Below the pieces are notes generated by a model. It made no database searches and was not told the DNA's origin. It saw only the letters and a list, made by a program, of their open reading frames with translations. A DNA stretch of 48,239 bases from a virus. The stretch's first letter is position 1; each line of letters opens with the position of its first letter. The position numbers and the translations under genes were made by a program. Below are positions 33,001 through 48,239 of this stretch, in pieces. The stretch spans positions 1 through 48,239 of the IMG/VR virus record IMGVR_UViG_3300008448_000147, one strand, 5' to 3'.

Positions 33001-36000
33001 TTGTTCTAGTAGTGTTATACCTCCGTTTACAAGTTCGGTTGTTATTTGATAATAAATTGTACCCATCTTTTCGGCGGCTATTCTTTTAATTTCATCTTGT
33101 ATGCCTGTATTTAACTGTGCTTCTGCTAATATTTTAAATTTTTCTCTCTCTATGTCTGAATTAACTCTTGTGTTTATAATTATTTCAGATAAATTTTTAG
33201 TAATCTCTAGAAAATCCACTCTTTCTAGCGTTTGTGTTAATATTGGAGAAATTACCATATTTGAGGTATCTACATTATTTTTATTTTCATTACTTTCAGA
33301 TTGTTGAGATTGATCATTGGATTTTGGTTTTGGAAATGCATCATCTGACAATTTCCATTGTTTTACTCCGTTTATTTCTTTTTGTTTCGCCCCAGTTTTC
33401 TTTTCATAATCTTCATACTTAATACCACCATTTTCGTCTAATACATAATCTGCTACTAATATGCCTTTTGCAATTAACATTGCTAAAAGTTTTTCTCTAT
33501 TTTCTTCTGCAGCTTTAGTATTTGAAGCGTTAGAGCCGCCCAAAGGAGATGTTGAAGCAGCTGAAAGAGTTTTTATCTCTTCTGGAGTCAGACTTATTTT
33601 AGGATTTTCAATCATATTAGCTGACCACTCTTTTAAGTCGCTATTAAACATTTCATAATATGGCTGTAAAGATCCTTGTAGTGTACCTTGGAACATATCA
33701 AGATAGTTAGTATCAACTTTTGCAGGATTTATAATTCCTGGCTTTCCATTTCTACACAACATAGGTAATTGTTCCGGGGTTCTTGTCACACCGTCCAATA
33801 AATCGGAAAGTCTTTTATTTTTTTCATCCTCTGCATCAGCAATTAAACCCTCAATTTGTTCTGGTGTTAGGCCGTTTTGTGCTAGAGCATCTTTTAATGC
33901 TTTTGTAGCAGATTCCGTAGAACAAATATTGGTATTTTCTTGAGCTATTTGATCTCCTAATTTTTTGCACACGTCTGAAATATTTAAAATCTGTCCTAAT
34001 TTTTGAAATAAGTATTCCACTTCAGATCTGGTTTTTAGTACTGATGATATATTTGGATACTTAGCTTCTATTATAGCTCTGACCAAAGATAAAATATCAT
34101 CTGTTGCTGTACCTTCTGCAATCAATCTACAAATCTCTGTAGGATTCATAAGACATGCAATATCTGCAATTAAATTTTTTAAGTCTTCTTTTGCTCTCTC
34201 TCTTTCTTGTATGTCTTCATCAGAATTTCCTGTAGGAAGCCCCATTGCTCCATATATGTCCGCAATAGAACTATTAGAAAAAGGATTATCTTGATTATCT
34301 AAAATTGCATCTAGTGCTGCAGAAAGACCTAGTTCTTGATCTGAAGTAAAAGGAGAATTTTTGCCTTGTCCTTGTTTTGAACAATTAGCCATAAGTTTTA
34401 TAAGCTCTTTTATAGCAATATTGAAAGTTTCAATTATAGCTTGTGATAATGCAGTAACATACGCATCTCTTAAGGCTTTTGACATATCAGAAGGATTAAA
34501 TTTTGGAACTTTGTAAGCAGCTAAAGCTTTAATTAACATATCCATGAAAGGAGTGCAGAAAAATTTAGTTAAAGCTTCTTGTATCCTTTTTTTTAAATCA
34601 CTATTAAATTGTGAATCTAAATTAGCCAATGCTTGTTGATTATTTGCATCCCTTATCCAACAAATAATTTGTTGTAATAAAGCTCTCTGAAAGTTTGTCT
34701 CTCTTAGAGTTTTTTTGAGAAGATGCAAAGCAGCAGGACCAGGTTTACTCCAATCTCCATAACCAGCATTTTTAATTGCACTAAGGGTATCATCACCAAA
34801 GGTAGGAGGTTCAGGATCTGTTGTTGGTAAAGTAGCTGCTGGAGTTGATGCTGCCTGTTTGTCTGCTTCTGCATCAAAATCTATCCATCTTCTTTTGCCG
34901 CCTCTAGCATAAGCTAGTTGTTTTTTAAAGTTAGCTTCTGCAACAGGTGCTACGGCTTTTATTGAATTATAACCTTTTATAATTCCATCTTCCCAAAGTT
35001 TTTTCATGTTATTTTTTGCACAATCAAAATCTCTTTTAGGGATATCTATTTCTTTTGGCTGTGGAATAACAAATTTTTCTATATACTTATCGATATCTAA
35101 ATTATTTCTAAGCTCTTTATTCCATTCTCCTTCATATGTTGCTAAATCGGTAATAATTTTATATGTACAGTAGTTATATAAAAAGAAGCCGCTTCTATTT
35201 GATATAACCCCATAACTTCCAAATTCATTTTCAAATATATACCCATCAATTACAAAAGTTTGTGCTATACCATCTCTAACGATATCTATATATGCTATAT
35301 TAAATTGATCTGTCAATCCAAAAGCTATATTATTTTTTGTAGCATCTGTATATAAAACATCATGTTCTATGGTATTTATTTCTAATAATTTTTTAATAGT
35401 TATTAAAAAGTTTCCTACATTATCTTTATCATAGAATTTTTTAGCTTCTTTTCTTAAATCTAATTCTATCAACTCTAAATAATTGTCAGCCGTTAAAGCA
35501 CCCATGTACTGATCAGCTGCTTTTAAGGCAAAATTAAATTGCTCCTCTCCTCTACTAGCTAAAATTTTAGATATATCTTTTATAGTTTCAGCAAAGCTAT
35601 TATAGTTTAAAAAACTATAAGTTACTATGTATTTAATATCTTCTGGATTTACTGAGGGATCTAATAGGCCACCAGTAACTCCATCTTTAGCAGCTTGTAG
35701 TGGATCTGCTCTATAATCAATTAAATCAGTAGAAGATAGATATTTTTTAGGAAACACTACAAGTGTATAAAAATTTGAACAAGGTCTAAGTTTTATAGCC
35801 CAATCTCTAGCATATCCGAATAGATAAAATCTATCAGACATTTGTTTTATATAATCTTCAGAGTTTTTCTTAGCGTTAGATTTAAAAATTAATCTTAAGC
35901 CGGTGAAATAAGCATCTTCAACATATTTTTGTATTTTTTCATCAGTAAGTTCAAGGCCATCATATTCCGCTTCTACTGAACAGTAATACAATTCACTCCT

Positions 36001-36759
36001 TTCATCATAATAAACAATAAATGGTTTTTTATCAGACCATCCAATTATATCTGTTTCCTGTAAATAACCAATCCTAGGTATTTCTACTGGCTTTAAAAAG
36101 CTATATTCTAATCCTTCAATTGGAGTAAGCTGGTTTCTTCTTACAAAAAATTCAATAGGGCCAGAATCTAACATTAAAGACACTTTACTAAACAATCCAA
36201 GAATGCCGATAAAATCTTCTACTATGGTAACTGAATATTCAACCTCGGTTTGCTCTGCTTCTCTAGGTGGTCCCAAAGTTTCATTAAAGAAAGTTTGAGA
36301 TATTAAATCTGTTGTTGTGGGTATTGCACCATATAAACCTTCAGATTCTCTTCTATCAATTACTGTATTTGCAACAGTTTTTGGAAATGAAAATTCTTGT
36401 GTTTCTGTAGATGATAAATTATTATCAATCCCCAAATCAGCAGCATAAGGCTCTTGTGGTTGAGCGTCTGGGAATGTAAGACCTTTTAATTCTTCGTCTG
36501 TAAGTTCGTCAAAAATTATCTCTTCTTCTTCCATATTTGATACTGGTGTTTCAGTATTAAAATCTGGCAACACTGAAAATTTAGTGTCTGAATTAGAAAA
36601 TCTTTCAACAACTGGCTGTGTTAAATCTTGGTTAACTATACTATCAAAATCATAGTATACAATCGATCCAACTGATAAAATATGAGTTGGCTTTTCTTCT
36701 CTATATGGTAATCTATTATTTTTATTTAATCTAGCGTATCTATCTGGGCTGTTAGACAT
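30079..36759 (-). CDS. Giant 2226-residue tail protein, hub/baseplate or tape-measure candidate
   Basis: One uninterrupted frame. The first 170 residues are acidic and low complexity (MEEEEIIFDELTDEEL). Residues about 170-560 are mixed alpha/beta. From about 650 to 1200 it is mainly helical with Ala/Gln/Asp-rich segments (AIIETFNIAIKELIKLM). Residues about 1350-1530 look like coiled coil (LDAAKQAEKTATANLDNAQR). The C-terminal 100 residues hold a hydrophobic run, ALTFCFIPPTPFGLAYYLL at about 2143-2161. Length, helicity and a hydrophobic segment would suit a tape-measure protein. However, location between the hub protein and gp25 and the long non-helical N-terminus also suit a baseplate protein. 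I cannot decide between them. Confidence 0.6.
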   Translation of the reverse strand: MSNSPDRYARLNKNNRLPYREEKPTHILSVGSIVYYDFDSIVNQDLTQPVVERFSNSDTKFSVLPDFNTETPVSNMEEEEIIFDELTDEELKGLTFPDAQPQEPYAADLGIDNNLSSTETQEFSFPKTVANTVIDRRESEGLYGAIPTTTDLISQTFFNETLGPPREAEQTEVEYSVTIVEDFIGILGLFSKVSLMLDSGPIEFFVRRNQLTPIEGLEYSFLKPVEIPRIGYLQETDIIGWSDKKPFIVYYDERSELYYCSVEAEYDGLELTDEKIQKYVEDAYFTGLRLIFKSNAKKNSEDYIKQMSDRFYLFGYARDWAIKLRPCSNFYTLVVFPKKYLSSTDLIDYRADPLQAAKDGVTGGLLDPSVNPEDIKYIVTYSFLNYNSFAETIKDISKILASRGEEQFNFALKAADQYMGALTADNYLELIELDLRKEAKKFYDKDNVGNFLITIKKLLEINTIEHDVLYTDATKNNIAFGLTDQFNIAYIDIVRDGIAQTFVIDGYIFENEFGSYGVISNRSGFFLYNYCTYKIITDLATYEGEWNKELRNNLDIDKYIEKFVIPQPKEIDIPKRDFDCAKNNMKKLWEDGIIKGYNSIKAVAPVAEANFKKQLAYARGGKRRWIDFDAEADKQAASTPAATLPTTDPEPPTFGDDTLSAIKNAGYGDWSKPGPAALHLLKKTLRETNFQRALLQQIICWIRDANNQQALANLDSQFNSDLKKRIQEALTKFFCTPFMDMLIKALAAYKVPKFNPSDMSKALRDAYVTALSQAIIETFNIAIKELIKLMANCSKQGQGKNSPFTSDQELGLSAALDAILDNQDNPFSNSSIADIYGAMGLPTGNSDEDIQERERAKEDLKNLIADIACLMNPTEICRLIAEGTATDDILSLVRAIIEAKYPNISSVLKTRSEVEYLFQKLGQILNISDVCKKLGDQIAQENTNICSTESATKALKDALAQNGLTPEQIEGLIADAEDEKNKRLSDLLDGVTRTPEQLPMLCRNGKPGIINPAKVDTNYLDMFQGTLQGSLQPYYEMFNSDLKEWSANMIENPKISLTPEEIKTLSAASTSPLGGSNASNTKAAEENREKLLAMLIAKGILVADYVLDENGGIKYEDYEKKTGAKQKEINGVKQWKLSDDAFPKPKSNDQSQQSESNENKNNVDTSNMVISPILTQTLERVDFLEITKNLSEIIINTRVNSDIEREKFKILAEAQLNTGIQDEIKRIAAEKMGTIYYQITTELVNGGITLLEQWAAGTIEEDAGFWIGLQDLEKRYKGGWDGWWSTLLAGLWAIYELLDVFIADITGAVRTQGAQRVGIGDVSQISTVNRSIRTEAARAAPAGTRVAVAKRADSVYTVTSGDTIVATYDSSYASTIQSKGKTSAEVVVLENEKKAAIDKRAAYENYLNNPSDPNAKSAAERFGITETTQQGLDAAKQAEKTATANLDNAQRQDEFLIPENKLGTTELFAGIDSLAEGISRDIKLFEESFAFKAISGIWTTILDAISGLQSEVSTLDAQLEDARKQLASADIAFPNYDIKYTFGSVISPERARTSEFLSQVSNINITKNLNPFISSSYLEEISPDIAMYIKNNNLLAGYNGSSSIQQYAFEKYMTQIRKIDPKEINYSDIESEFMSDIYNDLKQSFFYKKPDNIGNTPYKNMSNLKKFQATLREPPGTNSDQFCGINNNSLDLDEIIEDVINDFREEACNNEPPNPTGGKRENMHPTERAMSDAFLLATLRVYIYDYFLKGIFLFDKYPIGIVATDPMLEFLSRCFEIEMKSFEPIYYQRFLDQCVSYFYKKNPTESKKIEIKTGERYDTLSARTKKEIFKKVIKSQILYISTRVTKKINNVINEKNAAPWQRLFVYGDETKKYESQYELQQFENYDNIQGHILKFFENRDPSEKIFTVVKNSSQTKVPVAGGRVIDTKGETLELYFKSKKILVTKSKFKKSITFKFLFEFCFPIRKYISVVTMQAIMANNARLQSMKTFFSTKAALKARHNSLMAGNGYKNNNDLGGAPANGGNSTANSGDQEAGWQSLLPLILRLAVQTPWQMLKGLCEVGDPNVFLASLPYNIARPITLAIMNQIPMLPEKTYGPDDLKPPPPRIYEEGALKGLPYAEDVMRRIGFNMSHGLFYATPAAGLALTFCFIPPTPFGLAYYLLGCWYDDFIDDTSNNETVNTTNAINFLNVKSNYKADSCNIARMAKKALKPKIELTEEQMIDLQYS

Positions 36760-36770
36760 ATTTATTCCCT

Positions 36771-37775
36771 TTAATTACAAAATACATAACTGCTTAGTAT
36801 ATTTGCTGAATTTTCCATTCCATCGTCTGGCACTAAGATGTATCTAGCTTTAGAGGCTTCAATAAATCCAGTTAATTCCATAGTCGATGCTTTAACATCT
36901 GTTAAAAGTCTTATTGCTTGATTATATCCATTAAATATCAATGACTGAGAAGGCAATCCTACATTTCCATAGAAAGAATCTCTATGTGTATGATTTAATA
37001 CTAACATATTTAAAGCATTTTGGCTAATAACAAAAGACTCTAGAGTGGATATAATATGATGCATTGCATCTGTAATTTCTACTAAAAATCCTTGTAAATT
37101 TTCTCCTTTTACCAAAGGCTGTAGAAGATCATCTCTATTATCTCCTATTAAACATATTCTGTGTCCAATAGGATAATCTACGCCAACTGCATTACCATGT
37201 GAGTCATAAAAATCAGTTCCAGAGACTATTTTTATATCTTTTCTGCCAATGATTCTAACTGAATCAGCTTTTATTCCTATACCGGAACAATTTTCAGACG
37301 GTGCGGCTAAACTACTTCTTATTCTAAAATTATGATCTAAATTTGTTCTTTGGCTTATAACTATTCTTGCTGCATCCATAGTATAGTTATTTTCAGTAAA
37401 TATTGGATTATTTGTAGAATCGGTAGATTTTGGATTTGGACCCATTCTTCCTACGACTATATCTATCGCTGCAGATCTTTTTACCGCAGCACCTCCATAT
37501 CCAGATAATCTATCTGATGGTCTGTCTCTACCAAAAACTATTGAACAATTTAAATTGTGATAGGATAAAACATTTTCACAGTCTGCTTTATTAAAAATAG
37601 GTATAGCTTCAATTAATTCAGTATTTCCTATTCCAAGTTTTGAAGTTATATTTTCTGAATTTCTTTGTGACAAAATTACGCTAGCTGGTACATCACCTAT
37701 TTTCATAGAATTAGGTGATGTTATTTCTCTGGCGTCTTCACTTTCTATTATTACTTTTTTAAAGGATTCAAACAT
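36771..37775 (-). CDS. Virion protein, probable baseplate hub partner
   Basis: A 334-residue protein between the NlpC/P60 hub protein and the giant tail protein. The centre contains a beta segment, ADSVRIIGRKDIKIVSG at 170-186. It resembles the repeated strand motif after the OB domain in gp5/VgrG-type spike proteins, although only one copy is seen. The C-terminal third is helical with His/Asn-rich patches (NALNMLVLNHTHRDSFYGN). No signal peptide or catalytic motif is present. The neighbours suggest a hub or spike component; the family is not recognised. Confidence 0.6.
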   Translation of the reverse strand: MFESFKKVIIESEDAREITSPNSMKIGDVPASVILSQRNSENITSKLGIGNTELIEAIPIFNKADCENVLSYHNLNCSIVFGRDRPSDRLSGYGGAAVKRSAAIDIVVGRMGPNPKSTDSTNNPIFTENNYTMDAARIVISQRTNLDHNFRIRSSLAAPSENCSGIGIKADSVRIIGRKDIKIVSGTDFYDSHGNAVGVDYPIGHRICLIGDNRDDLLQPLVKGENLQGFLVEITDAMHHIISTLESFVISQNALNMLVLNHTHRDSFYGNVGLPSQSLIFNGYNQAIRLLTDVKASTMELTGFIEASKARYILVPDDGMENSANILSSYVFCN

Positions 37776-37784
37776 ATTTTTTCT

Positions 37785-39479
37785 CTATACAGTACGTGAT
37801 TTAGATGCTGTTATTGCTTTACCACCACCAGCGATAGCTGGTGTTCCAGACATCGGATTTGCCGAGCCTTTTCTTCTTCCACTTCTTTGATGAAGATTGT
37901 TTGCTAATAACCAAACTCTTCTTTCTTTTGCTATATCTGGAGCTTTTATTACAGCTGGTGGATGGACAGAAACGGATGCAGGATATTTATATTGATTCGC
38001 ATAATTTTTAGGAAAATTACCACTTTTCTCTAAAGCCCCAGATGTTGATAAAAGTTCTTTTCTAGCAAATTGAGGTTTTACTCGATAATATCCAGCAAAA
38101 GCTTTCCACCAATCTCCATATTGTGGTTTAAACCATACATCATGATTGTATTCTTTACTTTTTGCACACCAAGATTTAGCTCCTGGGGTATCTACTCCTA
38201 TTCCAGAATCTGCCATATCTGCATCACAAGGCGCTCCAGGTCCATTTGCTCCCCAAACTATAGAATGATTACCATGTGAAGGATCAGGATATGATACAAC
38301 CATCATAATGTGAGCACCACCAGCGTATATAACTACATCTCCAGGAACTTGTTGTCCAATTGGTACTCTGTTACAAAATAGTTGAAAAAACCCTTTTGCG
38401 TTATTTTGACCAATTCCATATGCAACAGTACTGTAACCAGGTGGCCCTGGTGCTTTTGGATCTAAAGCTCCTATTTTTATTAGGCAATATCTGCAATATC
38501 CAATACAGTCAAGTCCTACATACATAGCTTCCCATGGTCCACTTGGATACCAATTTGCATTAGGATACTTGGCACTATAATTTTTCCATCCTTCATGTGT
38601 TAAACATTCGTCTGGTGGGCTTCTATTGCCTTTGCCATTTAATGCACCAGAAAATTTTCCTGGTTCATAAAAATTTGGATACCATCCATATCTATATAGA
38701 CATCCTTTTGAATTTATCATGGTATCAATAATTTCACTATAATCAACTATCCATCTTCCATTATATCCAGGTGGCATAGATGGATCACCTTTATTACCAT
38801 CGGGAGCAACAGAGCCGCCAGTAAATGCAGCACCAACGATTCCAGAGCCAGCTGGGCCTCCAGCAGCTGAACCATATGCTCCATTTGGACCAGACATGTT
38901 TGGTTCAGATACTATTTTAGATATTAAAAAGCCATTCTCTCTAGTTCTAGCATTTTGGAACATAATCCAAACGCCATCACCCGGCTGGATGTTCTCATTT
39001 TTACCTGGATTAAATTCTGCTACTTGCGTATAACTTGCCATTTTTTGTTCTGTTCTGGCAAATTTTTCTTTATCTTCTTTAGAGGCTTCTAGGCCATTTT
39101 GTAATTCTGGTAGCGTTTCCGGTGCTGGCAATCCAGCATGAACTTCTGGGATATATACAATAAATTTTCGTATAACCAATGAAGTATCTGCAACTGGTGC
39201 TTGTTCGGAAGTAACAGATTCGCCTTCTGGCGGTGTGCCGGTTGAAGGTCTAGGTGGAATATTCATAAATGCCAAGGAGAAAGTTTCTTCACCTGGGTCT
39301 GCTGATTCTATTTGTTTTAGAACTGTTCCTGCGTAAAATACAGTTCCACCTAGAGCATCCGGCGTATATTTTTCTCTTAGGACTTCTTTTAGTGCGCTTT
39401 GCACGGTAGAAGTTTGAGCATTTAATTCGCTCCTAAATAAATCAGCAGAAACGAAATTTAAACCTCTAACTTGACTCAT
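37785..39479 (-). CDS. Tail hub protein with NlpC/P60 peptidoglycan hydrolase domain
   Basis: A 564-residue protein. The N-terminal 200 residues are beta-rich (GGTVFYAGTVLKQIESADP, KFIVYIPEVHAGLP, IQPGDGVWIMFQN), compatible with the OB-type hub domain of T4 gp5-like proteins. A Gly/Ala linker (195-235) leads to a cysteine peptidase-like domain at about 245-470. The presumed nucleophile is C325 in GLDCIGYCRY, and the His is H390 in YAGGAHIMMVV, preceded by VPGDVVIY, the canonical NlpC/P60 spacing. The domain has extra cysteines (C260, C292, C329, C332). It should cut peptide cross-links in the host wall during tail penetration, the job done by the lysozyme domain of T4 gp5. GGAG precedes the ATG. 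Confidence 0.85.
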   Translation of the reverse strand: MSQVRGLNFVSADLFRSELNAQTSTVQSALKEVLREKYTPDALGGTVFYAGTVLKQIESADPGEETFSLAFMNIPPRPSTGTPPEGESVTSEQAPVADTSLVIRKFIVYIPEVHAGLPAPETLPELQNGLEASKEDKEKFARTEQKMASYTQVAEFNPGKNENIQPGDGVWIMFQNARTRENGFLISKIVSEPNMSGPNGAYGSAAGGPAGSGIVGAAFTGGSVAPDGNKGDPSMPPGYNGRWIVDYSEIIDTMINSKGCLYRYGWYPNFYEPGKFSGALNGKGNRSPPDECLTHEGWKNYSAKYPNANWYPSGPWEAMYVGLDCIGYCRYCLIKIGALDPKAPGPPGYSTVAYGIGQNNAKGFFQLFCNRVPIGQQVPGDVVIYAGGAHIMMVVSYPDPSHGNHSIVWGANGPGAPCDADMADSGIGVDTPGAKSWCAKSKEYNHDVWFKPQYGDWWKAFAGYYRVKPQFARKELLSTSGALEKSGNFPKNYANQYKYPASVSVHPPAVIKAPDIAKERRVWLLANNLHQRSGRRKGSANPMSGTPAIAGGGKAITASKSRTV

Positions 39480-39483
39480 TTTT

Positions 39484-39768
39484 TTAGTTCTCCTTTATCA
39501 TGTCAAAGAGACCATCAATTTCTCTTTCGGAAAGCTTTTCTTTATTTCCTTCTTTCTTTTGAACGATTGCAGTTAATTTAACCATCTGTTCATTTGATCT
39601 TTGAAGAGTTTCTAAATATTGTGCTGCAATATGACCTAAGTTTTGGTGTGAAGATGCATCATCTTTCATTTTATCTACTAAACGAGTTAAAAGATAGGAA
39701 GCAACTGCTCTATCTTGCTCTATATTTTGTACAGATTTTTCTATAAAATCTTGTAATGATTTACTCAT
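39484..39768 (-). CDS. Small helical protein next to the late sigma factor
   Basis: A 94-residue protein, almost entirely helical by composition (YLLTRLVDKMKDDASSHQNL, AAQYLETLQRSNEQMVKL). It ends in a hydrophobic-acidic tail, REIDGLFDMIKEN. It overlaps the sigma factor gene by 8 bases and has its own GGAG. In T4 the late coactivator gp33 works with gp55 and binds the sliding clamp through a short hydrophobic-acidic C-terminus. That makes a gp33-like role an attractive but unproven idea. Small terminase-like or structural accessory roles are alternatives. Confidence 0.65.
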   Translation of the reverse strand: MSKSLQDFIEKSVQNIEQDRAVASYLLTRLVDKMKDDASSHQNLGHIAAQYLETLQRSNEQMVKLTAIVQKKEGNKEKLSEREIDGLFDMIKEN

Positions 39769-40480
39769 CTTCTTCGCTCCATAGATGTGTTATCTTTCCT
39801 TCATCCCAATCATTTTTAAAGTGTGTATATCTACCTCTAAATTTTTTTAAGTTGTTTACAACTTGTTTTGTACTTAAACCAGTCATCTCTCTTATGTAAA
39901 GATAAATAGCTTTTTTATTAAAAATTTGTATACTTTCGGGACTTTCTAGTAAAACTTTTATAGCCTTAAAGACTTTTAATTCATTTTGCTTCATTTTTTC
40001 AGGTTGCCATGAATCTATTTCTTTCCATAGAGCTGTCCAAAATTCTGTTTCTTCTCTTTTTTGATCGTATGTATTATAAGATATAAAATTTTCATCCTCG
40101 GCTAAATTTCCTATATCATCTATACACACTTCTTTACTGTTTTGTATTTTTTTTACCTTATGGATGAACCAATTTTTTGTAATAACCGAAAAATAAGAAA
40201 AGGCTTTAGACCCTTTGGATACATCGTATTTATCCAATATGGTCGTAAGCCAAATTTTACATTCATCTTTTAAGTCTTGAATATTAGGAAGCGTATTAAA
40301 TTTATACGTATATACAATTTTATCAACCATTTCATTAAACGCTGGTTGTATTAGAGTTATATATAATTCTGTTCTTCTTTTATGATCTATTATAGTTGCG
40401 TATTCTAAAATCGCATCTTCATGCGTCTTAGAAAAATAGATCTTATTTTCTTTGTTATCATTCTCTGTTCTTTTCTTCAA
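39761..40480 (-). CDS. Late-transcription sigma factor, T4 gp55-like
   Basis: A 239-residue sigma-70-superfamily protein (T4 gp55 has 185). The core LKDECKIWLTTILDKYDVSK, followed by KAFSYFSVITKNWFIHKVKK, is a sigma region 2-type stretch: the aromatic/basic helix that binds the core polymerase clamp and melts the -10 element. A C-terminal helix-turn-helix-like segment (IREMTGLSTKQVVNNLKKF) follows. The last residues, THLWSEEDE, are hydrophobic-acidic, as in the clamp-binding tail of gp55. The only plausible start is TTG at 40480, inside the previous gene, preceded by GGAAG. It probably directs host RNA polymerase to late promoters for the tail genes downstream. Confidence 0.85.
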   Translation of the reverse strand: MKKRTENDNKENKIYFSKTHEDAILEYATIIDHKRRTELYITLIQPAFNEMVDKIVYTYKFNTLPNIQDLKDECKIWLTTILDKYDVSKGSKAFSYFSVITKNWFIHKVKKIQNSKEVCIDDIGNLAEDENFISYNTYDQKREETEFWTALWKEIDSWQPEKMKQNELKVFKAIKVLLESPESIQIFNKKAIYLYIREMTGLSTKQVVNNLKKFRGRYTHFKNDWDEGKITHLWSEEDE

Positions 40481-40760
40481 CTTTTTTTTCTTCCTGTTTT
40501 TGAATTATAGTTTCTTTATATACACGACATGCTTCAACGATTAATTTTGTATTCTCTATAGCAATTTTAATTGTTTCATCACCATAGAATTCTTCTAATT
40601 CATAAACAGACTGTAAAGAATTTGAATATTCATTTAATAGTTTCTGAAGTTCATCTACATTAGATATACCATACCATAGATTTTTTACTAACTTTCTACA
40701 ATACCAAATTAATACAATATTTATAAGTGCCGATAAAAAAAGGATTGTTAAAAGTATCAT
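40458..40760 (-). CDS. Small membrane-anchored protein
   Basis: A 100-residue protein with one N-terminal hydrophobic segment (LLTILFLSALINIVLIWY, residues 3-20). A soluble helical part and a Lys/Glu-rich end (EEKKVEEKNRE) follow. The arrangement fits an inner-membrane protein with a cytoplasmic coiled-coil tail. Its ATG overlaps the FmdB-like gene stop in an ATGA junction, and its 3' end overlaps the sigma factor gene by 23 bases, so the three are probably co-translated. No family recognised. Confidence 0.65.
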   Translation of the reverse strand: MILLTILFLSALINIVLIWYCRKLVKNLWYGISNVDELQKLLNEYSNSLQSVYELEEFYGDETIKIAIENTKLIVEACRVYKETIIQKQEEKKVEEKNRE

Positions 40761-41011
40761 TTATATTCTCTTCCTTTAAGTTCTTGTTTAGAATCCAATA
40801 ATAACTTTCTGGAATCCTCTATAAATTTTTCGACTCTTTCACCAGCCATGTCTCTTTCGGATTTTTGTTTAGAATAGGAAGTTAATAGTTGTGGGATTCT
40901 TTCCAAAGTTTCTTTTCCGCACTTTTCACATAGTTTTAAACTTTCATTCATGCTGTGAAAAGAATCAAATTTATATTCACACTGTTTACATTCGTATGTA
41001 TATAATGGCAT
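40757..41011 (-). CDS. FmdB-type zinc ribbon protein
   Basis: An 84-residue protein beginning MPLYTYECKQCEYKFDSF, the classic FmdB/CxxC zinc-ribbon opening. A second pair in CEKCGKETLERI completes a four-cysteine site. A longer start at 41017 is possible, but GGGAG lies only two bases before it. The same GGGAG is seven bases before the ATG at 41011, and family members begin MPLY, so I choose 41011. FmdB-like ribbons are presumed regulatory or nucleic-acid-binding; the C-terminal half is helical and basic. Adjacency to the sigma factor fits a transcription role, by inference. Confidence 0.75.
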   Translation of the reverse strand: MPLYTYECKQCEYKFDSFHSMNESLKLCEKCGKETLERIPQLLTSYSKQKSERDMAGERVEKFIEDSRKLLLDSKQELKGREYK

Positions 41012-41013
41012 GA

Positions 41014-41193
41014 TCATTCTCCCGCTTGGTCTTCCGATAGTTTCATAGCAACAGGTGGATTTACAACAACTAACTCTCCATCTTCTAATTCTAGATCAAA
41101 ACTTTTCATAAGTGGAACAATATCAGTTTGTTCCATTAGACTTTTTTGTAAAGCTACCATAACACATGTTAAAGCTTGGTCAGATAATTTCAT
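41014..41193 (-). CDS. Small 59-residue protein, unknown
   Basis: A frame exactly filling the space between the epimerase gene and the zinc-ribbon gene. It begins MKLSDQALTCVMVALQKSLM and ends VAMKLSEDQAGE. Its ATG is one base after the epimerase stop, and its TGA overlaps the longer ATG option of the next gene. The composition suggests a helix-strand-helix fold, with a Gly-Glu-Leu-Val-Val-Val strand in the middle. No family recognised; it is probably a small regulatory or accessory protein. Confidence 0.65.
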   Translation of the reverse strand: MKLSDQALTCVMVALQKSLMEQTDIVPLMKSFDLELEDGELVVVNPPVAMKLSEDQAGE

Positions 41194-41194
41194 T

Positions 41195-42139
41195 TTATAC
41201 TCCTCTTATATTTGGATAATTTTTTTTAAACCAGTCACAAGTCTTCTTTATCCCTACTTCTAAACTTGTATACGTTTCTTCTTTCCATCCTAAATCTAGA
41301 AATTTTTTATTAGAAGTTGGTTTACGAATTTGTCCTTTTGGTTTTTTATTATCATACGTTATATCACCATTATATTCTAATTCTTTAGAAATTAAAGTAA
41401 TAACATCTTTTAATTTGTATTCTTTAGTAGATCCAATATTTACTGGATCTCCGGTATAATTATTATCTAATAAGAATTTTATCGCTTTAGCAATATCTTC
41501 AGCATAAGTAAACTCACGATAAACTTCACCATCACCCCAAACTTCAAACGATGGTTTATTATTAATTTTTGCCTCCCAGATTTTACGGATTAAAGATGGG
41601 ATAACATGACCATTCTCAAGATCAAAATTATCATGTTCTCCATACATGTTGTTTGGAATAACTGATATATATTCTGTACTGTATTGTTGATTTGCTGCTT
41701 TTAATTGAACATCAACCATACGTTTTGCATAAGCATATCCAAAATTTGAATCATGTGGAGGGCCATTATGAAGCTGATCTTCAGTTAGTGGATAATTTAC
41801 ATATTTTTCGTCTGGGTATATACACGTTGATAGACAACAAATTAACTTTGGGACATCTGTAAATATACAAGATTGAATAATGTTGTTATTTATCTCAGAG
41901 TTTGTGTTATAAAAATCAGAAATATAGCGAGTATTTGCTTTTACTCCTCCAACCTTTCCTGCTAAATGTATTACTGCTTTTATTTTTGATTCGGAGAATT
42001 CATTAAAATTATCAAAATATCGATGAGTATCATCATAGTTTTCTAAGTTTAATTCTTTATGTGTTGGATAGAGAGCATCCGGTAATATTTTTTTAAATGC
42101 ACTTCCAAGTAATCCAGAGCCGCCAGTTATAATAATCAT
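41195..42139 (-). CDS. GDP-L-fucose synthase-like NAD(P)-dependent epimerase/reductase
   Basis: A 314-residue extended short-chain dehydrogenase. The N-terminus has the nucleotide-binding motif TGGSGLLGS at 5-13, followed by HLAGKVGGVKAN. The catalytic set of GDP-L-fucose synthase is present: S104 and C106 in STCIYP, Y135 and K139 in YAYAK, and H178 in GHVIP. NMYGEHDNFD and NFGYAYAKRM are family hallmarks. The enzyme makes GDP-L-fucose from GDP-4-keto-6-deoxymannose. No GDP-mannose 4,6-dehydratase is visible, so the substrate would come from the host or a gene outside the window. Relatives acting on other GDP-sugars cannot be excluded. GAGGA precedes the ATG. Confidence 0.88.
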   Translation of the reverse strand: MIIITGGSGLLGSAFKKILPDALYPTHKELNLENYDDTHRYFDNFNEFSESKIKAVIHLAGKVGGVKANTRYISDFYNTNSEINNNIIQSCIFTDVPKLICCLSTCIYPDEKYVNYPLTEDQLHNGPPHDSNFGYAYAKRMVDVQLKAANQQYSTEYISVIPNNMYGEHDNFDLENGHVIPSLIRKIWEAKINNKPSFEVWGDGEVYREFTYAEDIAKAIKFLLDNNYTGDPVNIGSTKEYKLKDVITLISKELEYNGDITYDNKKPKGQIRKPTSNKKFLDLGWKEETYTSLEVGIKKTCDWFKKNYPNIRGV

Positions 42140-42148
42140 ATAATTCCT

Positions 42149-42562
42149 CTAATATAATTCAGGAAAATCGGTACATACCCCTAATATATTTTTAGGTAGG
42201 TTTTTGTTGTGTCCAAATTCTACCGTAATCCCATCTTGTATATAAACACCAGGAAAACACCATAAATAATTTTTACTAGTTAAAGTAATTTTATCATTTT
42301 CATGCCAAAACCAATTTAACTCAGTATTTTTCAGTCTGATACAAGCATCAAAATTTTTAGCATGTAGCCACATTTTATTGCTAAAGAAAAAATTTGTTAC
42401 TTCGTATGTTGGTAAATCGTGTCCTAAAAACCATTTATTATTTACATACCAAACATCTACTTCAACTTCAAATTTTTTTATTACTTCTAAGATCCTATCT
42501 GGATTGTTTTCCAGATTTCTTTCTATGCCATTTAAATTTCCTCTATGTGATATAATTTTCAT
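42149..42562 (-). CDS. Compact glycerophosphodiester phosphodiesterase-like protein
   Basis: A 137-residue protein with the first three active-site blocks of the GDPD/PI-PLC-like barrel: H6-R7-G in IISHRGN, E34-V-D36 in VEVDVW, and G-H48-D49 in FLGHDLPTY. Full GDPD enzymes have about 230-250 residues, so half the barrel is shortened or missing. The ORF still ends normally and keeps a conserved-looking end (LGVCTDFPELY). Similar short proteins occur, from memory, in capsule-type clusters. It may hydrolyse a glycerophospho group on a glycan, but activity is uncertain. It overlaps the WavE-like gene by 20 bases. Confidence 0.7.
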   Translation of the reverse strand: MKIISHRGNLNGIERNLENNPDRILEVIKKFEVEVDVWYVNNKWFLGHDLPTYEVTNFFFSNKMWLHAKNFDACIRLKNTELNWFWHENDKITLTSKNYLWCFPGVYIQDGITVEFGHNKNLPKNILGVCTDFPELY

Positions 42563-43328
42563 CAGAAATTCTTTCTTTGTATTGTTCTTCTGTTAAATAA
42601 CATGATAAATATTCTGGTTGATTAATCCATTTTCCAATATTTATAATACCTGCAGTGCTTTTTGTATCTATAACCTTATAGTTGTTTAATATATATTTCC
42701 ACGAATCTCTTGTCAGAGTTATGTAGTCTTCTAGGGTTAAATCCTTGTAGATATATTTTTTTATCAGATTAAAAGATAATATATGTTCAGTTCCAAAAAA
42801 AGAATTAGAAAAGTCTGTTTTCTCTAAGTCATCATATACATCACAAATTTTTTTAATATCTTCTTTCATGCCTAAATAAAACCAATCAGAAATTCTAAAC
42901 CAAGGTTTTGGTTCTGATGTGGAGTCTGGGTTTATGGTCATCATATTACTGACCACTACTTTACTATCAAAGATTTTATATTCTCCAAATGCTTTTTCAA
43001 AATTAAAATAACTAAAAATATTTTTAGTTACCAAACAATCATTTCTTATCTTGAATATAAGATCATTTGAACTTTCTTCTAGTGCTTTTTTAAGCCCATA
43101 TAACTGTCTTTTTAGATTGCAATGTTGTTGTACAGGCAATAAACCATTAAAAGGCCCAGGTCCGGGATCTTTACAAAATAATATTTTATCATATCCGCTT
43201 AAATTATTATTTTGTCCTTCCCAAGTTGATATTATTAATTCTCCATCAAACCATTCCCTTATTTGGTTTATGGATCTCTGCACCATATTATTTTGTATTT
43301 CGCCTTGAATTATTACTGTTTTTTCCAT
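42543..43328 (-). CDS. WavE-like glycosyltransferase
   Basis: A protein of 261 residues when started at ATG 43328. The open frame extends to a TTG at 43376, but the family sequence begins at MEKTVIIQGEIQ. The motif IISTWEGQNN, a conserved GPGPFNGLLPVQQHCNLKRQ segment and FKIRNDCLV are the pattern of the WavE lipopolysaccharide-synthesis family. The R-N-D takes the place of a GT-A metal-binding DxD. WavE-type proteins are thought to add sugars to LPS core or capsule. It overlaps the methyltransferase gene by 16 bases. A second protein with a related layout is encoded at 46330-47070. Confidence 0.72.
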   Translation of the reverse strand: MEKTVIIQGEIQNNMVQRSINQIREWFDGELIISTWEGQNNNLSGYDKILFCKDPGPGPFNGLLPVQQHCNLKRQLYGLKKALEESSNDLIFKIRNDCLVTKNIFSYFNFEKAFGEYKIFDSKVVVSNMMTINPDSTSEPKPWFRISDWFYLGMKEDIKKICDVYDDLEKTDFSNSFFGTEHILSFNLIKKYIYKDLTLEDYITLTRDSWKYILNNYKVIDTKSTAGIINIGKWINQPEYLSCYLTEEQYKERISDENYIT

Positions 43329-43921
43329 ACAAAAGAAATTCCATGATCTGTTAAACATTCTTTCTGAACTACCCAATCAAAATTTAAATTTTGGACAAAC
43401 AGTTTTGGTCCTGGATGGTTGTTCGTATCGTGAAATCCAACAATTCCATATTCGGATAATAAGTTTGTAAATTCCCACTCTGCATATACTTGATTTATAC
43501 TATGCCAACCATCTATAAAAATAAAATCTATTTCCTCAACTCCTTTAGATTTTATGAATTCTAATATTTCAGAATAATTTTCAGATTTTGTTTGAAGAGT
43601 ATAAACATTATTCTCTTCGTCATTCAAAAATGAACAATCTCTGATATCTACTCCAATATATACACAGTCTTTGTTTTTGTTTTTTACAAGTGTATATGAA
43701 CTACCAAATTCACTTCTAGCAATTCCTATCTCTAAAATAGCTCTACATCTATCTTTAACTGTTAAAAAATATTTTTTTAAGCTTTCATGATTGCATGGAG
43801 TAAATTCACCATTTTGTCCATCATAATATACATCAGTTGTTTCACTTAGAGGAAGATCTGAATCATCTCTTGAATCATTAAATCTTATGTCTCTTAATAA
43901 ATCAGATTGCCATTTTTTCAT
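43313..43921 (-). CDS. Class I SAM-dependent methyltransferase
   Basis: A 202-residue protein starting at ATG 43921, whose A is shared with the RLP stop codon (TAATG). An in-frame ATG at 43939 lacks a ribosome-binding site. Motif I is ILEIGIARSEFGSS, the acidic end of strand 2 is VYIGVDIRD, and DFIFIDGWHSINQVYAEWE plus VGFHDT complete the Methyltransf_24/cephalosporin hydroxylase-like pattern. Within a sugar cluster it would most likely O-methylate a sugar or a small precursor. Direct translational coupling to the RLP suggests the two act in the same pathway. The substrate is unknown. Confidence 0.8.
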   Translation of the reverse strand: MKKWQSDLLRDIRFNDSRDDSDLPLSETTDVYYDGQNGEFTPCNHESLKKYFLTVKDRCRAILEIGIARSEFGSSYTLVKNKNKDCVYIGVDIRDCSFLNDEENNVYTLQTKSENYSEILEFIKSKGVEEIDFIFIDGWHSINQVYAEWEFTNLLSEYGIVGFHDTNNHPGPKLFVQNLNFDWVVQKECLTDHGISFVWKKQ

Positions 43922-45114
43922 TATTTTACCAATCCCCATTTTTCTATAGCTATATTATATTCAGATTTATAATTTTTATCAATTGACTGTCTCATTGCCA
44001 TAGCACCAGAAATTGTACCATTAGGATGACCATGGACAGCACCACCCGCATTTGCTAGATAGTCAATACCAACTTTTGAAGTTACATACTCCACTAACCC
44101 TGGGTGCATACCACAACTTAATGCTGGGAGTGTGTTTCCATTTCTTAAAGTTGAGATACATTCTAAAATTTCTTCTGGATCGTCATTACTATATCCACCA
44201 ATCATACCAGTTTGGATGGTATCAACGCCCATTAAAGTAGCTAAATAACACATAACCTTCCAAGAAATACTGTATTTATGATCTTTCTCTGTAAAAACTT
44301 TTGCGCCGCTACTCTGATAGTGTAAAAATAAAGGTAGATTTAATTTTCTTATGCTATTATAAGAACCTAAGCCGCTAAACACGTTAATATGTACACCATT
44401 TCCTCCTAATTCATATACTCTTTTTACTCTATCTACAAGAATATGTGGATCACAATTTATGGTGTGACAGAAAACAACTTTACGGTTTTGGCTTGCTAGA
44501 TAATTTGAAACAATCTCTACTCTTTTTTCAAGAGGAGCCACCACTGGGTTGCTCATGATTTCATCTTCTTTGATAAAGTCGGCACCACCATCAACCATTT
44601 GTTTTACCATTTCTAGTAAAATATATGGAGTTACTCCAATTTTTGGCTTAACAATACTTCCGAACAGGGGTTTATTATATTGTCCTGTAAAATTCCTAAA
44701 TCCACTGATTCCAAATTTTGGACCTAAAAAATTGTCTGTAACAGATTTAGGTAATTTTAAATCAATTAATCTACATCTTTCAACTATATCTATATCAACA
44801 TGACCACCCATTAATTGGCATATCATGTGAGAAATTCCATCAGATTGCCAGTCATTGTTTGCAACAGGAAATGCAATATTTACTTCACCTTCAGTTTTTT
44901 CGCTCAATTCTGATTCTGAATGTAAAATAAGGCAAGAATGATTTTGAAACAATTCTTCAGTTTCCCATTCGTTTCTAACATTTGGATTGCCAACGCTTTG
45001 TCCGATTGCTAAATTCCAAGCAGCATCCTTTAAATTAGTTTTTGACTTAATTTTATATTTTGCTATATAATATTTCTCGTAATCCAACTCACTAGTAAAA
45101 ATATTAAATTTCAT
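43921..45114 (-). CDS. RuBisCO-like protein (probable form IV)
   Basis: A 397-residue RuBisCO-superfamily protein: N-terminal alpha/beta domain (1-125) and TIM barrel. K156 and K158 in VKPKIG match spinach K175/K177. K182, D184 and E185 in DFIKEDE match the carbamylated K201, D203 and E204. S333 and G357-G358 match S379 and G403-G404. However, the H294-R295 site reads Q267-S268 (LHYQSSG), the H327 position is Q301, the loop-6 K334 is absent (GGYSND), and E60/N123 are replaced. The enolisation site is thus kept but carboxylation is unlikely. Known RLPs are methionine-salvage enolases or act on sugar acids. It has a GAGGA ribosome-binding site. Nothing in its sequence makes me assign a substrate; the glycan context suggests a sugar phosphate. 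Confidence 0.88.
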   Translation of the reverse strand: MKFNIFTSELDYEKYYIAKYKIKSKTNLKDAAWNLAIGQSVGNPNVRNEWETEELFQNHSCLILHSESELSEKTEGEVNIAFPVANNDWQSDGISHMICQLMGGHVDIDIVERCRLIDLKLPKSVTDNFLGPKFGISGFRNFTGQYNKPLFGSIVKPKIGVTPYILLEMVKQMVDGGADFIKEDEIMSNPVVAPLEKRVEIVSNYLASQNRKVVFCHTINCDPHILVDRVKRVYELGGNGVHINVFSGLGSYNSIRKLNLPLFLHYQSSGAKVFTEKDHKYSISWKVMCYLATLMGVDTIQTGMIGGYSNDDPEEILECISTLRNGNTLPALSCGMHPGLVEYVTSKVGIDYLANAGGAVHGHPNGTISGAMAMRQSIDKNYKSEYNIAIEKWGLVK

Positions 45115-45121
45115 ATTTTCC

Positions 45122-46012
45122 TCATAATTGTAAAATATTTTTTACAATTTCATAATATTTTTCGAAGCATTTTTCGGGAGTGTGAAACTTTGTGTAAGAT
45201 TCATACGCAGCTTCTCCATAGTCAATATATCTCTTATTTTCCATTGTGTAAAGTATTTTTTCTTTTAAATCCTGAAAATCATCTCTTATTTCTATATAAC
45301 TATCGAATAGTATACCATCTTTTGATGTAGATTTTAGTTTTAATTTTGGCATTATTATAGCGCATTTTGTACTTGCCAATTCCCAAGTTCTTTTAGAGTC
45401 ATAAGAATTACCAAAATAATTTAGTCCTATTTTTGAAGAATTTATAACTTCTGTATATTTTTTAGTAATTTTATCAGCTACACCTACATGATCATCAACA
45501 TCAATATGCCAGTTCATATTTTTTAACTCATTCACTGATAGTTGCTTAATGTGCTCAACAAACGGTTTCCTTCTTCCAGAAGTCATTCTTCCTATAAAAG
45601 ATAAATCGATCTCTTTTAATTGAAATCTTTGATCATATTTTGTAGCAACAGGAAAATGAAATCCATATACAGGGCTTTTCCATGGATTTTTTGAATTATC
45701 TGTCAACTCTCTATGCATTATTAAGTCTGGTTTTCTATTGCTCCAAATTTGTATATCTTCAAAGTCGGTATCATCGTGTTGAATAAGATTAGAGAATCTA
45801 TAATATGTATCTATTATTTTATTAGTTATTGGTATAGTATTCCACTCATGAAGATATAAAACAATATTTTGATAATCATGTACTGGCTTAAAATCTGCTA
45901 GGTTTGTTTCATATACATAATCACACTTATAGCCTAATTCTTCAAATTTTTTGAAATAAAAATTTGCATTATCAACCCAAGAATAAGAAAAAAATAAAAA
46001 ATCTTTAGTCAT
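45122..46012 (-). CDS. CgeB-like GT-B glycosyltransferase
   Basis: A 296-residue protein with the layout of the CgeB-like glycosyltransferases (GT-B fold). The N-terminal half is the variable acceptor domain, with YQNIVLYLHEWN and a short EDIQIWSNRKPDLIMHRE. The C-terminal half contains LSFIGRMTSGRRKPFVEHI, then SSKIGLNYFGNSYDSKRTWE. It ends in the ELASTKCAIIMPKLK and FDSYIEIRDDFQDL segments that bind the nucleotide-sugar. GAGG precedes the ATG. It probably transfers a sugar within the local glycan pathway; the donor cannot be read. Confidence 0.78.
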   Translation of the reverse strand: MTKDFLFFSYSWVDNANFYFKKFEELGYKCDYVYETNLADFKPVHDYQNIVLYLHEWNTIPITNKIIDTYYRFSNLIQHDDTDFEDIQIWSNRKPDLIMHRELTDNSKNPWKSPVYGFHFPVATKYDQRFQLKEIDLSFIGRMTSGRRKPFVEHIKQLSVNELKNMNWHIDVDDHVGVADKITKKYTEVINSSKIGLNYFGNSYDSKRTWELASTKCAIIMPKLKLKSTSKDGILFDSYIEIRDDFQDLKEKILYTMENKRYIDYGEAAYESYTKFHTPEKCFEKYYEIVKNILQL

Positions 46013-46333
46013 TTATACCTCATATTTATCATTTGGAACAGAAGCTGTTTTTACAACAACTATTTTGCAATCTTCTAAAAATTCAGGATCTGCTATTTCT
46101 AGCGGTTCAAGAATAAAAATATCACCTGGGTTGATTTCTTTTCCGCATATTACCATCTTACCAGAAATTAAGCAGTTAATTTCTGTAGCAATTTTATGAT
46201 AATGTTTAGGCCACTTTTCACCTTTTTTATGAATAAGTATTCCAACTTCAAAGAGGTCAGTTTTATAAACGCTCGGATTGAAATTTCCTACCATCCAACC
46301 TCTCCACATATTATTTATATTATCTATTTTCAT
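46013..46333 (-). CDS. Cupin-domain protein
   Basis: A 106-residue single-domain cupin. Cupin motif 1 is exact: G followed by five residues, then HYH, four residues, E, six residues and G (from GEKWPKHYH to LISGK). Motif 2 (GDIFILEPLE) lacks the usual histidine, so metal binding would depend on the motif-1 residues or be altered. Cupins in sugar clusters can be epimerases, isomerases or sensors. Its stop is adjacent to the next start. In this cluster it may act on the same precursor as the RLP, which is inference. Confidence 0.75.
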   Translation of the reverse strand: MKIDNINNMWRGWMVGNFNPSVYKTDLFEVGILIHKKGEKWPKHYHKIATEINCLISGKMVICGKEINPGDIFILEPLEIADPEFLEDCKIVVVKTASVPNDKYEV

Positions 46334-47070
46334 CTCTTAAGCCTATATTCTAAATCATATCTTAAATTATTATCTATTGTTAAAGGTATTTTTAGATCAT
46401 TATTTTTTAAAGTATATTCAAGCATGGTTTCTGCAGAAAAATTATTATATTTTTTAAAATTTTCAATACTCAAAGCATAGATATTTTTCATAATATCAAA
46501 AGCTTCAGGTTTTATATATACGATATAGTCTCTTATATTGTAATAATTTTCTACTCCATAAGAATCTCCAACGACAATTTTTTCATCCACAAAATTAAAT
46601 GGCTTTAATAAATCAATATCAAATCGACTTCTGATAAGAAAATCATATTTTTCATAGTTTTTTATAGATTTAAAACCCTCAGACACAGCATACCATTGCG
46701 AAGTTAATCTATTTACTGCCTCTTCTGGTACATTTCCACCTTGATATGTTTTGTATTGACTATTTTCCGTATTCCAAGTTCCATATTTGGTAGGATGTAT
46801 TTCTATATTTTTTTTATTGTATTCAAAAAAACCCCTAGATTCATTTATTACTATCACCTTAGTCCAAGGAGAATAAACAGATAATAATTTTTTCATAGAC
46901 TCTTCAGAGTGATAAAAATCAGTAAGATGATCCGTATTATTCCAGGTGGAGATGTATATATCACAATCATATAAATCTAATAAATTTTTCTTTAAATTAA
47001 GAAATGTATCCATATATGTTCTTAAATGACCGCTTAGTACTAATGCTATTTTTTTATTTTCTGTTTTCAT
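46330..47070 (-). CDS. Glycosyltransferase-like protein, WavE-type layout
   Basis: A 246-residue protein starting with IALVLSGHLRTYMDTF, then CDIYISTWNNTDHL, and later FLIRSRFDIDLLKPF. This order (strand, D-x-x-I-S-T-W, R-F-D metal-binding-like motif) parallels the WavE-like protein at 42543-43328, where IISTWEGQNN and FKIRNDCLV occupy the same places. The C-terminus is helical and Lys-rich. I infer a GT-A-type transferase for a surface glycan. It overlaps the nucleotidyltransferase gene by 17 bases and the cupin gene by an ATGA. Confidence 0.65.
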   Translation of the reverse strand: MKTENKKIALVLSGHLRTYMDTFLNLKKNLLDLYDCDIYISTWNNTDHLTDFYHSEESMKKLLSVYSPWTKVIVINESRGFFEYNKKNIEIHPTKYGTWNTENSQYKTYQGGNVPEEAVNRLTSQWYAVSEGFKSIKNYEKYDFLIRSRFDIDLLKPFNFVDEKIVVGDSYGVENYYNIRDYIVYIKPEAFDIMKNIYALSIENFKKYNNFSAETMLEYTLKNNDLKIPLTIDNNLRYDLEYRLKR

Positions 47071-47782
47071 AAATTTTTATGTCCTCCGGCGTTCCTAAAG
47101 AATAAAATTCACCCTTATTGAGAGAGTGATAACCTATGTTCATACCTTTTTTTATTAAATAATTATATGTTTTAGATACATAAAATTCATTATTAACTCT
47201 ATCATTGTTTTTTAACAATTCCACCGCAGAGTTTACAAAATAGCTTCCTTTTCTCCAATAATGAATACCGCATAAAGCCAAATTAGAAATAGCAGTTTTT
47301 TCATCTAACAGTAGACCTAAATTATTTTCATCTGTTTTTATAAAACTATAAGGACTCTTTTCTCCCACTATTATATTATCATAAGGATAAGTAGCAACAC
47401 AGCCATCGAGATTTTTTCTTCGACATGAATTTAAAAATAAGTTACTATCCCAGATAGTTCTTTGATCACAATTTGTAGTGATAAGTTCTGTATCATTATC
47501 TATAAATTCTTTTGCTAATAATATAGAGCTTACTGTACCATCAGTTAAATAATCAATTTCAATAATTATAGAGTCGGGCTTAGTATTATATAATACATCT
47601 TTTAGCTTATCAGAAAAGTTACTTTTTCTAATTACAAATATATATTGTCCTTCTATTCCTAGACTATCTATAGCGTGTTGAACTATTGTTTTTTCCTCTA
47701 TTTTAATTAATGGTTTTGGATCTAAATATCCCGCATCAAAAAATCTCTTCCCAAGACCAACCATCGGTATAACTATATTCAT
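47054..47782 (-). CDS. Sugar-phosphate nucleotidyltransferase
   Basis: A 242-residue GT-A fold nucleotidyltransferase. The N-terminus, IPMVGLGKRFFDAGYLDPKP, is the nucleotide-binding loop (P-M-x-G-x-G-x-R-F) followed by the PKPLI lysine. TTNCDQRTIWDS carries the aspartate expected to bind Mg2+. The pattern is that of enzymes activating sugar-1-phosphates, or similar alcohol phosphates, to NDP or CDP derivatives. An AAGGA precedes the ATG, which overlaps the HAD gene stop as ATGA, so the two are coupled. Pairs of HAD phosphatase and nucleotidyltransferase are common in heptose and capsule pathways; the exact sugar is unknown. Confidence 0.8.
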   Translation of the reverse strand: MNIVIPMVGLGKRFFDAGYLDPKPLIKIEEKTIVQHAIDSLGIEGQYIFVIRKSNFSDKLKDVLYNTKPDSIIIEIDYLTDGTVSSILLAKEFIDNDTELITTNCDQRTIWDSNLFLNSCRRKNLDGCVATYPYDNIIVGEKSPYSFIKTDENNLGLLLDEKTAISNLALCGIHYWRKGSYFVNSAVELLKNNDRVNNEFYVSKTYNYLIKKGMNIGYHSLNKGEFYSLGTPEDIKIYENRK

Positions 47783-48239
47783 ATGTATTCCTTCATAAGG
47801 TCTATATTAACCTGTTTAGCATTATCGACTTTTATTATAAAAGCGCCGGCACCAGAAGCTGCTTCAATTCCTTTTGGAGAATCTTCCACTATTATAGTTT
47901 CGTTTGGAGAGACATTAAAAAAATTAATACAATTTATATAACCTTCTGGGTTTGGTTTTGGAGAATTAACGTCTTGATTTGTGATCAGTTTATCTAACGA
48001 GGATAAAACACCTGCTTTTTTCAGGATCAATTCGGCAGTTTTTCTTATGCTATTAGTATAGCAAGCAATTTTAATATTTTTATCTTTTAAGTATTTTAAT
48101 AGTTCTACTTTAGAAGAATCATACGCGCAAAGATCATTTATTAATTTTATAGTATTTTCTTGTTTTAGTGATTCTATGGTATCAAATAAATTTTCTGTGA
48201 CCATCCCTTTATCTTTTAATTTTTTTAATTTTATTTTTG
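47779..48239 (-). CDS. HAD-superfamily phosphatase, partial
   Basis: The frame is open to the window edge, so the N-terminus with the catalytic DxD motif is missing. An internal ATG at 48204 is unlikely to be the true start. Motif II is ACYTNSIRKTAE, motif III is K in NSPKPNPEGY, and motif IV is ETIIVEDSPKGIEAA with the VEDS acidic pair. These are the features of beta-phosphoglucomutase/phosphoglycolate phosphatase-type subfamily I HADs. It would remove a phosphate from a small sugar phosphate. It is coupled by ATGA to the nucleotidyltransferase gene. Confidence 0.82.
   Translation of the reverse strand, partial: KIKLKKLKDKGMVTENLFDTIESLKQENTIKLINDLCAYDSSKVELLKYLKDKNIKIACYTNSIRKTAELILKKAGVLSSLDKLITNQDVNSPKPNPEGYINCINFFNVSPNETIIVEDSPKGIEAASGAGAFIIKVDNAKQVNIDLMKEYI

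Follow-up and report, generated by a model that had tools for sequence, protein, structure and literature searches.

The described enzymes closest to the RuBisCO-like protein (RLP) studied here are form III RuBisCO (PDB 3a12, 8dht), its best structural match with a TM-score of 0.88, and the DK-MTP-1-P enolase MtnW (PDB 2oej, 2zvi), its best single-sequence match in the PDB. OiaX and the RLPs encoded beside DUF1537 kinases do not carboxylate and act on sugar-acid phosphates. In R. rubrum, the Deep-Ykr RLP Rru_A1998 acts as an isomerase and is followed in its pathway by the cupin Rru_A2000, so that an RLP isomerase and a small cupin are paired there, as they may be at our locus (PMC4958253). In viruses, RbcL or RbcL-like genes have been noticed earlier in contigs, including random IMG/VR viruses (PMC12607003, PMC12615777, PMC8506154), and, in the portions of these reports and of PMC13390420 that were accessible, they are taken as carbon fixation genes or left unassigned. 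For one of these viral rbcL genes, possibly a different gene from the RLP, carboxylase activity is reported (PMC12615777). The accessible portions of PMC12607003, PMC12615777 and PMC8506154 hold no comparable clade, active-site or cassette analysis, and no earlier description of the gene cassette reported below was found in the literature searched on phage RLPs, IV-GOS and RLPs in polysaccharide clusters.

The RLP gene occupies positions 43921..45114 on the minus strand of the window, the 48,239-nucleotide stretch of viral DNA analysed here. The open reading frame is intact, with 397 codons, and a Shine-Dalgarno-like GAGG lies 5-9 bases 5' of its ATG, in agreement with the first-pass annotation of an intact gene with a good ribosome-binding site. 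The predicted protein matches RuBisCO_large (PF00016, E=1.9e-33, 116.5 bits against a cut-off of 30.1) and, also above cut-off, RuBisCO_large_N (PF02788), and its PDB sequence matches are MtnW and form III enzymes (E 1e-35 to 1e-33). An AlphaFold model built from a 67-sequence alignment (pLDDT 93.2, pTM 0.92) returned form III RuBisCO as the top Foldseek match over the whole chain, at 24% identity, and MtnW with a TM-score of 0.84; no RuBisCO-like viral structure was found in BFVD. Sequence, including Pfam and NCBIfam matches, and predicted fold thus place the protein in the RuBisCO superfamily, as a RuBisCO-like protein (form IV in the broad sense). The 3' end of the gene is overlapped by the downstream gene for a methyltransferase-like protein (43313..43939, minus strand; Methyltransf_24-like, below the curated cut-off). 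The TAATG coupling of these two genes proposed earlier holds if the methyltransferase starts at its second Met; the listed start, an earlier ATG at 43939, gives a 19-base overlap instead.

To place the RLP within the superfamily, we computed a maximum-likelihood tree (80 rows, LG+C20, 398 columns) that covered forms I-III, MtnW, OiaX, the RLPs beside DUF1537 kinases and a cupin-linked group of RLPs. The viral and cellular RLP members, 36 rows in all, lie on one side of a single branch with a support of 100/100 and a stem length of 1.08. Forms I-III constitute a separate group (100/97) that leaves the RLP clade outside, OiaX and the RLPs beside DUF1537 kinases form another (100/100), apart from the RLP clade, and MtnW is placed elsewhere. 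The RLP clade is also absent from a cupin-linked group (L205, L207, L208, L210 and L222) that, judging from its own adjacent cupins, is probably Deep-Ykr. Profile scores draw the same boundaries: full-length members score at least 304 bits against the family HMM and all other collected RuBisCO and RLP sequences at most 197 bits, and the RLP falls far short of both the MtnW equivalog (138 bits against a cut-off of 513.6) and the OiaX equivalog NF042437 (140.9 bits against 700, in spite of E=4.8e-41). The placements that would have contradicted the first-pass annotation, within forms I-III or MtnW, were therefore not found. By these comparisons the RLP belongs to a clade of RuBisCO-like, probably non-carboxylating proteins that is separate from forms I-III, from MtnW, from the OiaX type and, by way of the group assigned from its cupins, probably from Deep-Ykr. 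The cellular lineages fall outside the viral radiation, and several exchanges are seen; in this tree, whose root is unproven, that pattern suggests a bacterial origin followed by uptake into phages.

We then aligned the family to forms I-III and judged residue invariance over 67 members. K156-P157-K158 (44641..44649, minus strand) corresponds to RuBisCO K175 and K177, and K182-E183-D184-E185 (44560..44571, minus strand) to the carbamate lysine K201 and the Mg ligands D203 and E204; both segments are invariant, as are S379 (S333) and G403 (G357). Loop-6 K334 is replaced by an equally invariant tyrosine, Y308 (44191..44193, minus strand), and further changes affect E60 (G38), T65 (N43), W66 (P44), N123 (G104), H294 (Q267) and R295 (K/S268). 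The residue set of true RuBisCO (K334, E60, N123, H294 and R295) is thus absent from the family, which retains the metal site with its carboxylation residues substituted, a second mark of a RuBisCO-like protein. Most members keep H327; the subclade of the window has Gln at this place (Q301), and deductions from RuBisCO phosphate binding are weakened by this. In the RuBisCO mechanism, a metal/carbamate site with K175 in the absence of K334, N123, H294 and E60 is expected to yield an enediolate and no carboxylation. Since the Mg/carbamate site and K175/K177 are kept and E60, N123, H294, R295 and K334 are lost, the RLP should be an enolising enzyme rather than a carboxylase. Among the groups compared, forms I, II and III alone share K175, K177 and the carbamate/Mg site with the RLP; form III nevertheless differs by its low identity (about 24%), its separate clade and the presence of the loop-6 Lys and other carboxylation residues that the RLP lacks. 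MtnW resembles the RLP in the loss of the loop-6 Lys, the E60 to G change and, as predicted for the RLP, enolisation chemistry, but it lacks K177 and belongs to another clade, and no methionine-salvage context was seen around the RLP.

The first-pass annotation had considered that the contig might be a chimaera of host and phage DNA. Two further IMG/VR records (126,749 and 187,450 bp) contain positions 35924-48239 of the window with 100% identity across all 12,316 bp, and the occurrence of the same sequence in these longer virus assemblies makes a chimaera very unlikely; we rejected it. A gene for a T4-type Gp23 capsid protein is present in the 187,450-bp record and was found in 10 of the 17 RLP-bearing records examined. 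The window itself encodes baseplate-wedge, head-decoration, primase and SbcD-like phage families. A 239-aa protein at 39761-40480 has, by eye, the look of a late-transcription sigma factor, with no PHROG or Pfam match. RuBisCO-superfamily proteins had been called rare in phages, which proved wrong for environmental phages: a scan of viral contigs with the single RLP sequence gave 54 relatives (55-100% identity), and a profile scan of IMG/VR found at least 297 stretches encoding RLP relatives, out of which 80 loci were kept. Yet no RLP was found in 50,697 isolate or deposited phage records (INPHARED). A form I/II alignment used likewise on viral contigs, within the limits of its motif patterns, gave no confirmed relative. 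One RLP copy, on a 145 kb viral contig (L047:8001-9167), is frameshifted; an alternative genetic code, considered for its in-frame stops, was rejected. In GTDB genomes, 23 loci encode clade members, in SAR11, Legionella, Azospirillum, Verrucomicrobia, Elusimicrobia, Bacteroidota, Patescibacteria and DPANN archaea; some of the SAR11 contigs are short and possibly phage DNA, others are long (L059, 232 kb; L065, 167 kb).

The RLP lies in a glycan cluster, all on the minus strand. As described earlier, it is flanked by glycosyltransferases, a Glyco_trans_1_2 protein (45122..46012) and a WavE-type enzyme (42543..43376), both identified by Pfam. A further glycosyltransferase-like protein (46330..47070) has no Pfam match and groups by sequence with WavE-like neighbours, and Pfam also identifies an NAD-dependent sugar epimerase/dehydratase of the SDR type (41195..42139). 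A HAD protein of the beta-phosphoglucomutase/sugar phosphatase type (47779..48237) has its 5' end outside the window and is complete in a longer assembly (L002:4728-5336). Beyond the window end, the same assembly carries cytidylyltransferase-like, PfkB kinase, small HAD and cupin genes (L002:2972-4735), a set that resembles a split heptose (HldE-type) activation set. Clustering of neighbouring genes, followed by HMM recounts over the 79 viral loci that extend 4 kb or more upstream of the RLP, revealed a conserved glycan cassette, whose tightest members are not the methyltransferase and glycosyltransferases emphasised at first. They are a sugar nucleotidyltransferase of the NTP_transferase fold (47054..47782; Pfam), present in 77/79 loci, a small GDPD-like protein with the motif HRG..EN..E.D..GHD (42149..42562; 65/79), and a small cupin of 106 aa with an HxH...E motif (46013..46333; 60/79). 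The cupin is the tightest partner, at most 100 bp from the RLP in 64 of the 74 loci having both; it is not strictly required, as it is absent from 19/79 viral loci and from Legionella. The cassette HMMs derive from these same loci, with E-values far below any threshold, and the counts are not independent events because many loci are close relatives.

In about 90 phage loci, and likewise in several groups of bacteria, the RLP gene is accompanied by those for a cupin, for a nucleotidyltransferase and for the small phosphodiesterase-like protein. The nucleotidyltransferase is present in 21/23 cellular loci; Elusimicrobia (L072) and Azospirillum (L073) have the GDPD, RLP, cupin and nucleotidyltransferase genes as one contiguous run, and all four also occur together in L057, L060 and L061. 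The NTP and sugar used by the nucleotidyltransferase cannot be named because only distant named relatives match it: RmlA, MurU and GlmU types fall far below their cut-offs, and the best PDB match, 4evw, is a nucleoside-diphosphate-sugar pyrophosphorylase of unstated specificity. The cupin gave weak PDB matches only. The GDPD-like protein (137-167 aa) has no match in Pfam or NCBIfam, and its model (pLDDT 97) gave only a weak GDPD match with Foldseek (1v8e, E=0.007, TM 0.56). At least 591 viral stretches encode it, nearly always next to the nucleotidyltransferase. Verrucomicrobia (L070) have a full-length GDPD (PF03009) in place of the small protein. In Legionella maceachernii, nautarum and drozanskii (L075-L077), the RLP-nucleotidyltransferase pair is divergent from a gene for a LicD phosphotransferase (PF04991, E=1e-42 in L076), which suggests that the Legionella unit is phosphodiester-linked, on a surface glycan.

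In reciprocal searches, we seeded scans with the partners of the RLP. With the cupin, 65 of the 66 loci longer than 10 kb, among the best 80 of 527 matches, encode the RLP. With the GDPD-like protein, the nucleotidyltransferase was found in 48/49 loci and the RLP in 7/49. The GDPD-like protein and the nucleotidyltransferase, mostly found without the RLP, are thus a general unit, to which RLP and cupin form an optional front end. Eight RLP-less GDPD-seeded loci carry a nucleotidyltransferase fused to RpiB (PF02502, E=9.5e-30), accompanied by the cupin in six of them, and this fusion is frequent in RLP-less cassettes that have a cupin; no locus among those examined holds both RpiB and the RLP. 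The cyanophage isolates Bellamy (L395:4989-6146) and SynMITS9220M01 (L396:4132-5289) encode the fusion, then the cupin, with the GDPD gene also present; the fusion is annotated there as 'phosphatase' and its partners as hypothetical proteins. A PfkB-like kinase gene lies directly upstream of the Bellamy fusion. In L273 (624-6438), a HAD-nucleotidyltransferase fusion is found beside a GDPD-like gene, next to genes that by eye resemble those of a dehydroquinate-synthase-type cyclase and an SDR protein, possibly another sugar-precursor front end. RpiB, which stands in the alternative place, is a sugar-phosphate isomerase that interconverts aldose and ketose phosphates, and an equivalent function of the RLP is thus the simplest interpretation. 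The cupins of the RpiB loci form one weakly supported clade, so the exchange of RLP and RpiB was probably a single swap; these loci are few, and RpiB could serve another product instead of replacing the RLP.

The first-pass annotation had suggested an undescribed role, for instance the enolisation of a sugar phosphate or sugar acid during glycan building. Of the putative reactions, enolisation of a sugar phosphate is the best fit. Given the clade, the residue set, the cassette linkage, the RpiB replacement, the Deep-Ykr precedent and the LicD neighbour in Legionella, we propose, with moderate confidence, that the RLP is a Mg2+-dependent (Lys-carbamate) sugar-phosphate isomerase/enolase that feeds nucleotide-sugar synthesis for a surface glycan. 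Starting from the observed family, predicted fold and conserved cassette, we infer the isomerase chemistry, substrate size, step order and target glycan as follows. The substrate would be a small ketose or aldose phosphate of about C4-C6, bound by K156/K158 together with the K182-D184-E185 metal site. From it the RLP would form an enediolate whose reprotonation at another carbon, instead of reaction with CO2, would result in isomerisation. The cupin may take this product through further isomerisation, epimerisation or elimination, after which the nucleotidyltransferase would charge it to an NDP-sugar. The same supply line may involve the GDPD-like protein as well as the HAD protein, in the role of a mutase or phosphatase. 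The unit would then be attached to a host-surface or phage-made glycan by the glycosyl- and methyltransferases.

The same evidence would also serve another outcome of enolisation within the cassette, such as epimerisation at position 2 or 3, or a 1,3-proton shift, with a branched or C7 sugar phosphate as substrate, to which the heptose-type genes upstream in the longer assembly (PfkB kinase, cytidylyltransferase-like) would be suited; as RpiB in the alternative place points to a small sugar phosphate undergoing aldose-ketose isomerisation, we regard these outcomes as possible but unlikely. It is more doubtful that the RLP is an OiaX-like decarboxylase converting a 3-oxo sugar-acid phosphate to a ketose phosphate for a glycan precursor. 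The OiaX type is the nearest functionally assigned group other than MtnW, with enolate chemistry in common and a significant NF042437 E-value, but the bit score and the separate clade set the RLP apart, OiaX-type RLPs adjoin DUF1537 four-carbon acid-sugar kinases whereas the frequent neighbours of the RLP clade are other families, and OiaX has H294 and R295 without K177, the reverse of the RLP clade. Salvage of a methylthio-sugar, by an RLP isomerase and a cupin cleaving the C-S bond as in the R. rubrum MTA-isoprenoid shunt, has the known RLP-cupin pairing (PMC4958253) and the very tight cupin adjacency on its side. The R. rubrum pair differs, however, in its unrelated cupin, in the lack of any reported nucleotidyltransferase/GDPD/glycosyltransferase cassette and probably in its RLP clade. 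Homology of the phage cupin to those beside the Deep-Ykr-like RLPs, as a cupin sulfurylase partner, was rejected, nothing beyond the fold being detectable (hhalign probability 0.7-1.3%), and the nucleotidyltransferase, GDPD and glycosyltransferase surroundings are unsuited to sulphur salvage, which makes this reading improbable. Finally, that the RLP is a viral RuBisCO boosting host carbon fixation, as viral rbcL genes have been reported to do (PMC12615777, PMC8506154), is very improbable despite the RuBisCO fold and the intact Mg/carbamate site with K175/K177, given the lost carboxylation residues, the position outside forms I-III and the glycan setting. As the first-pass annotation had stated, carbon-fixation and methionine-salvage genes are not nearby: no phosphoribulokinase was found in the 17 RLP-phage records, and no methionine-salvage context was seen.

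Phage members of this family are easily misread as carbon-fixation 'rbcL'. At least 297 IMG/VR stretches encode RLP relatives, whereas the motif-limited form I/II query gave no confirmed relative in this collection; viral contigs of this kind are therefore probably mislabelled where automatic annotation reads 'rbcL, carbon fixation'. The superfamily, famed for carbon fixation, gains a well-supported clade that has conserved gene partners of its own and gives a concrete substrate hunt. Because the cassette also occurs in Elusimicrobia, Azospirillum and SAR11, the glycan chemistry should be reachable outside phages. Tentatively, we suggest that a RuBisCO-fold enzyme has been recruited by bacteria and by hundreds of large phages, within a portable RLP-cupin-nucleotidyltransferase-GDPD cassette, and that, by a reaction new to the superfamily, it may commit a sugar phosphate of central metabolism to the synthesis of a novel nucleotide sugar that serves surface glycans.
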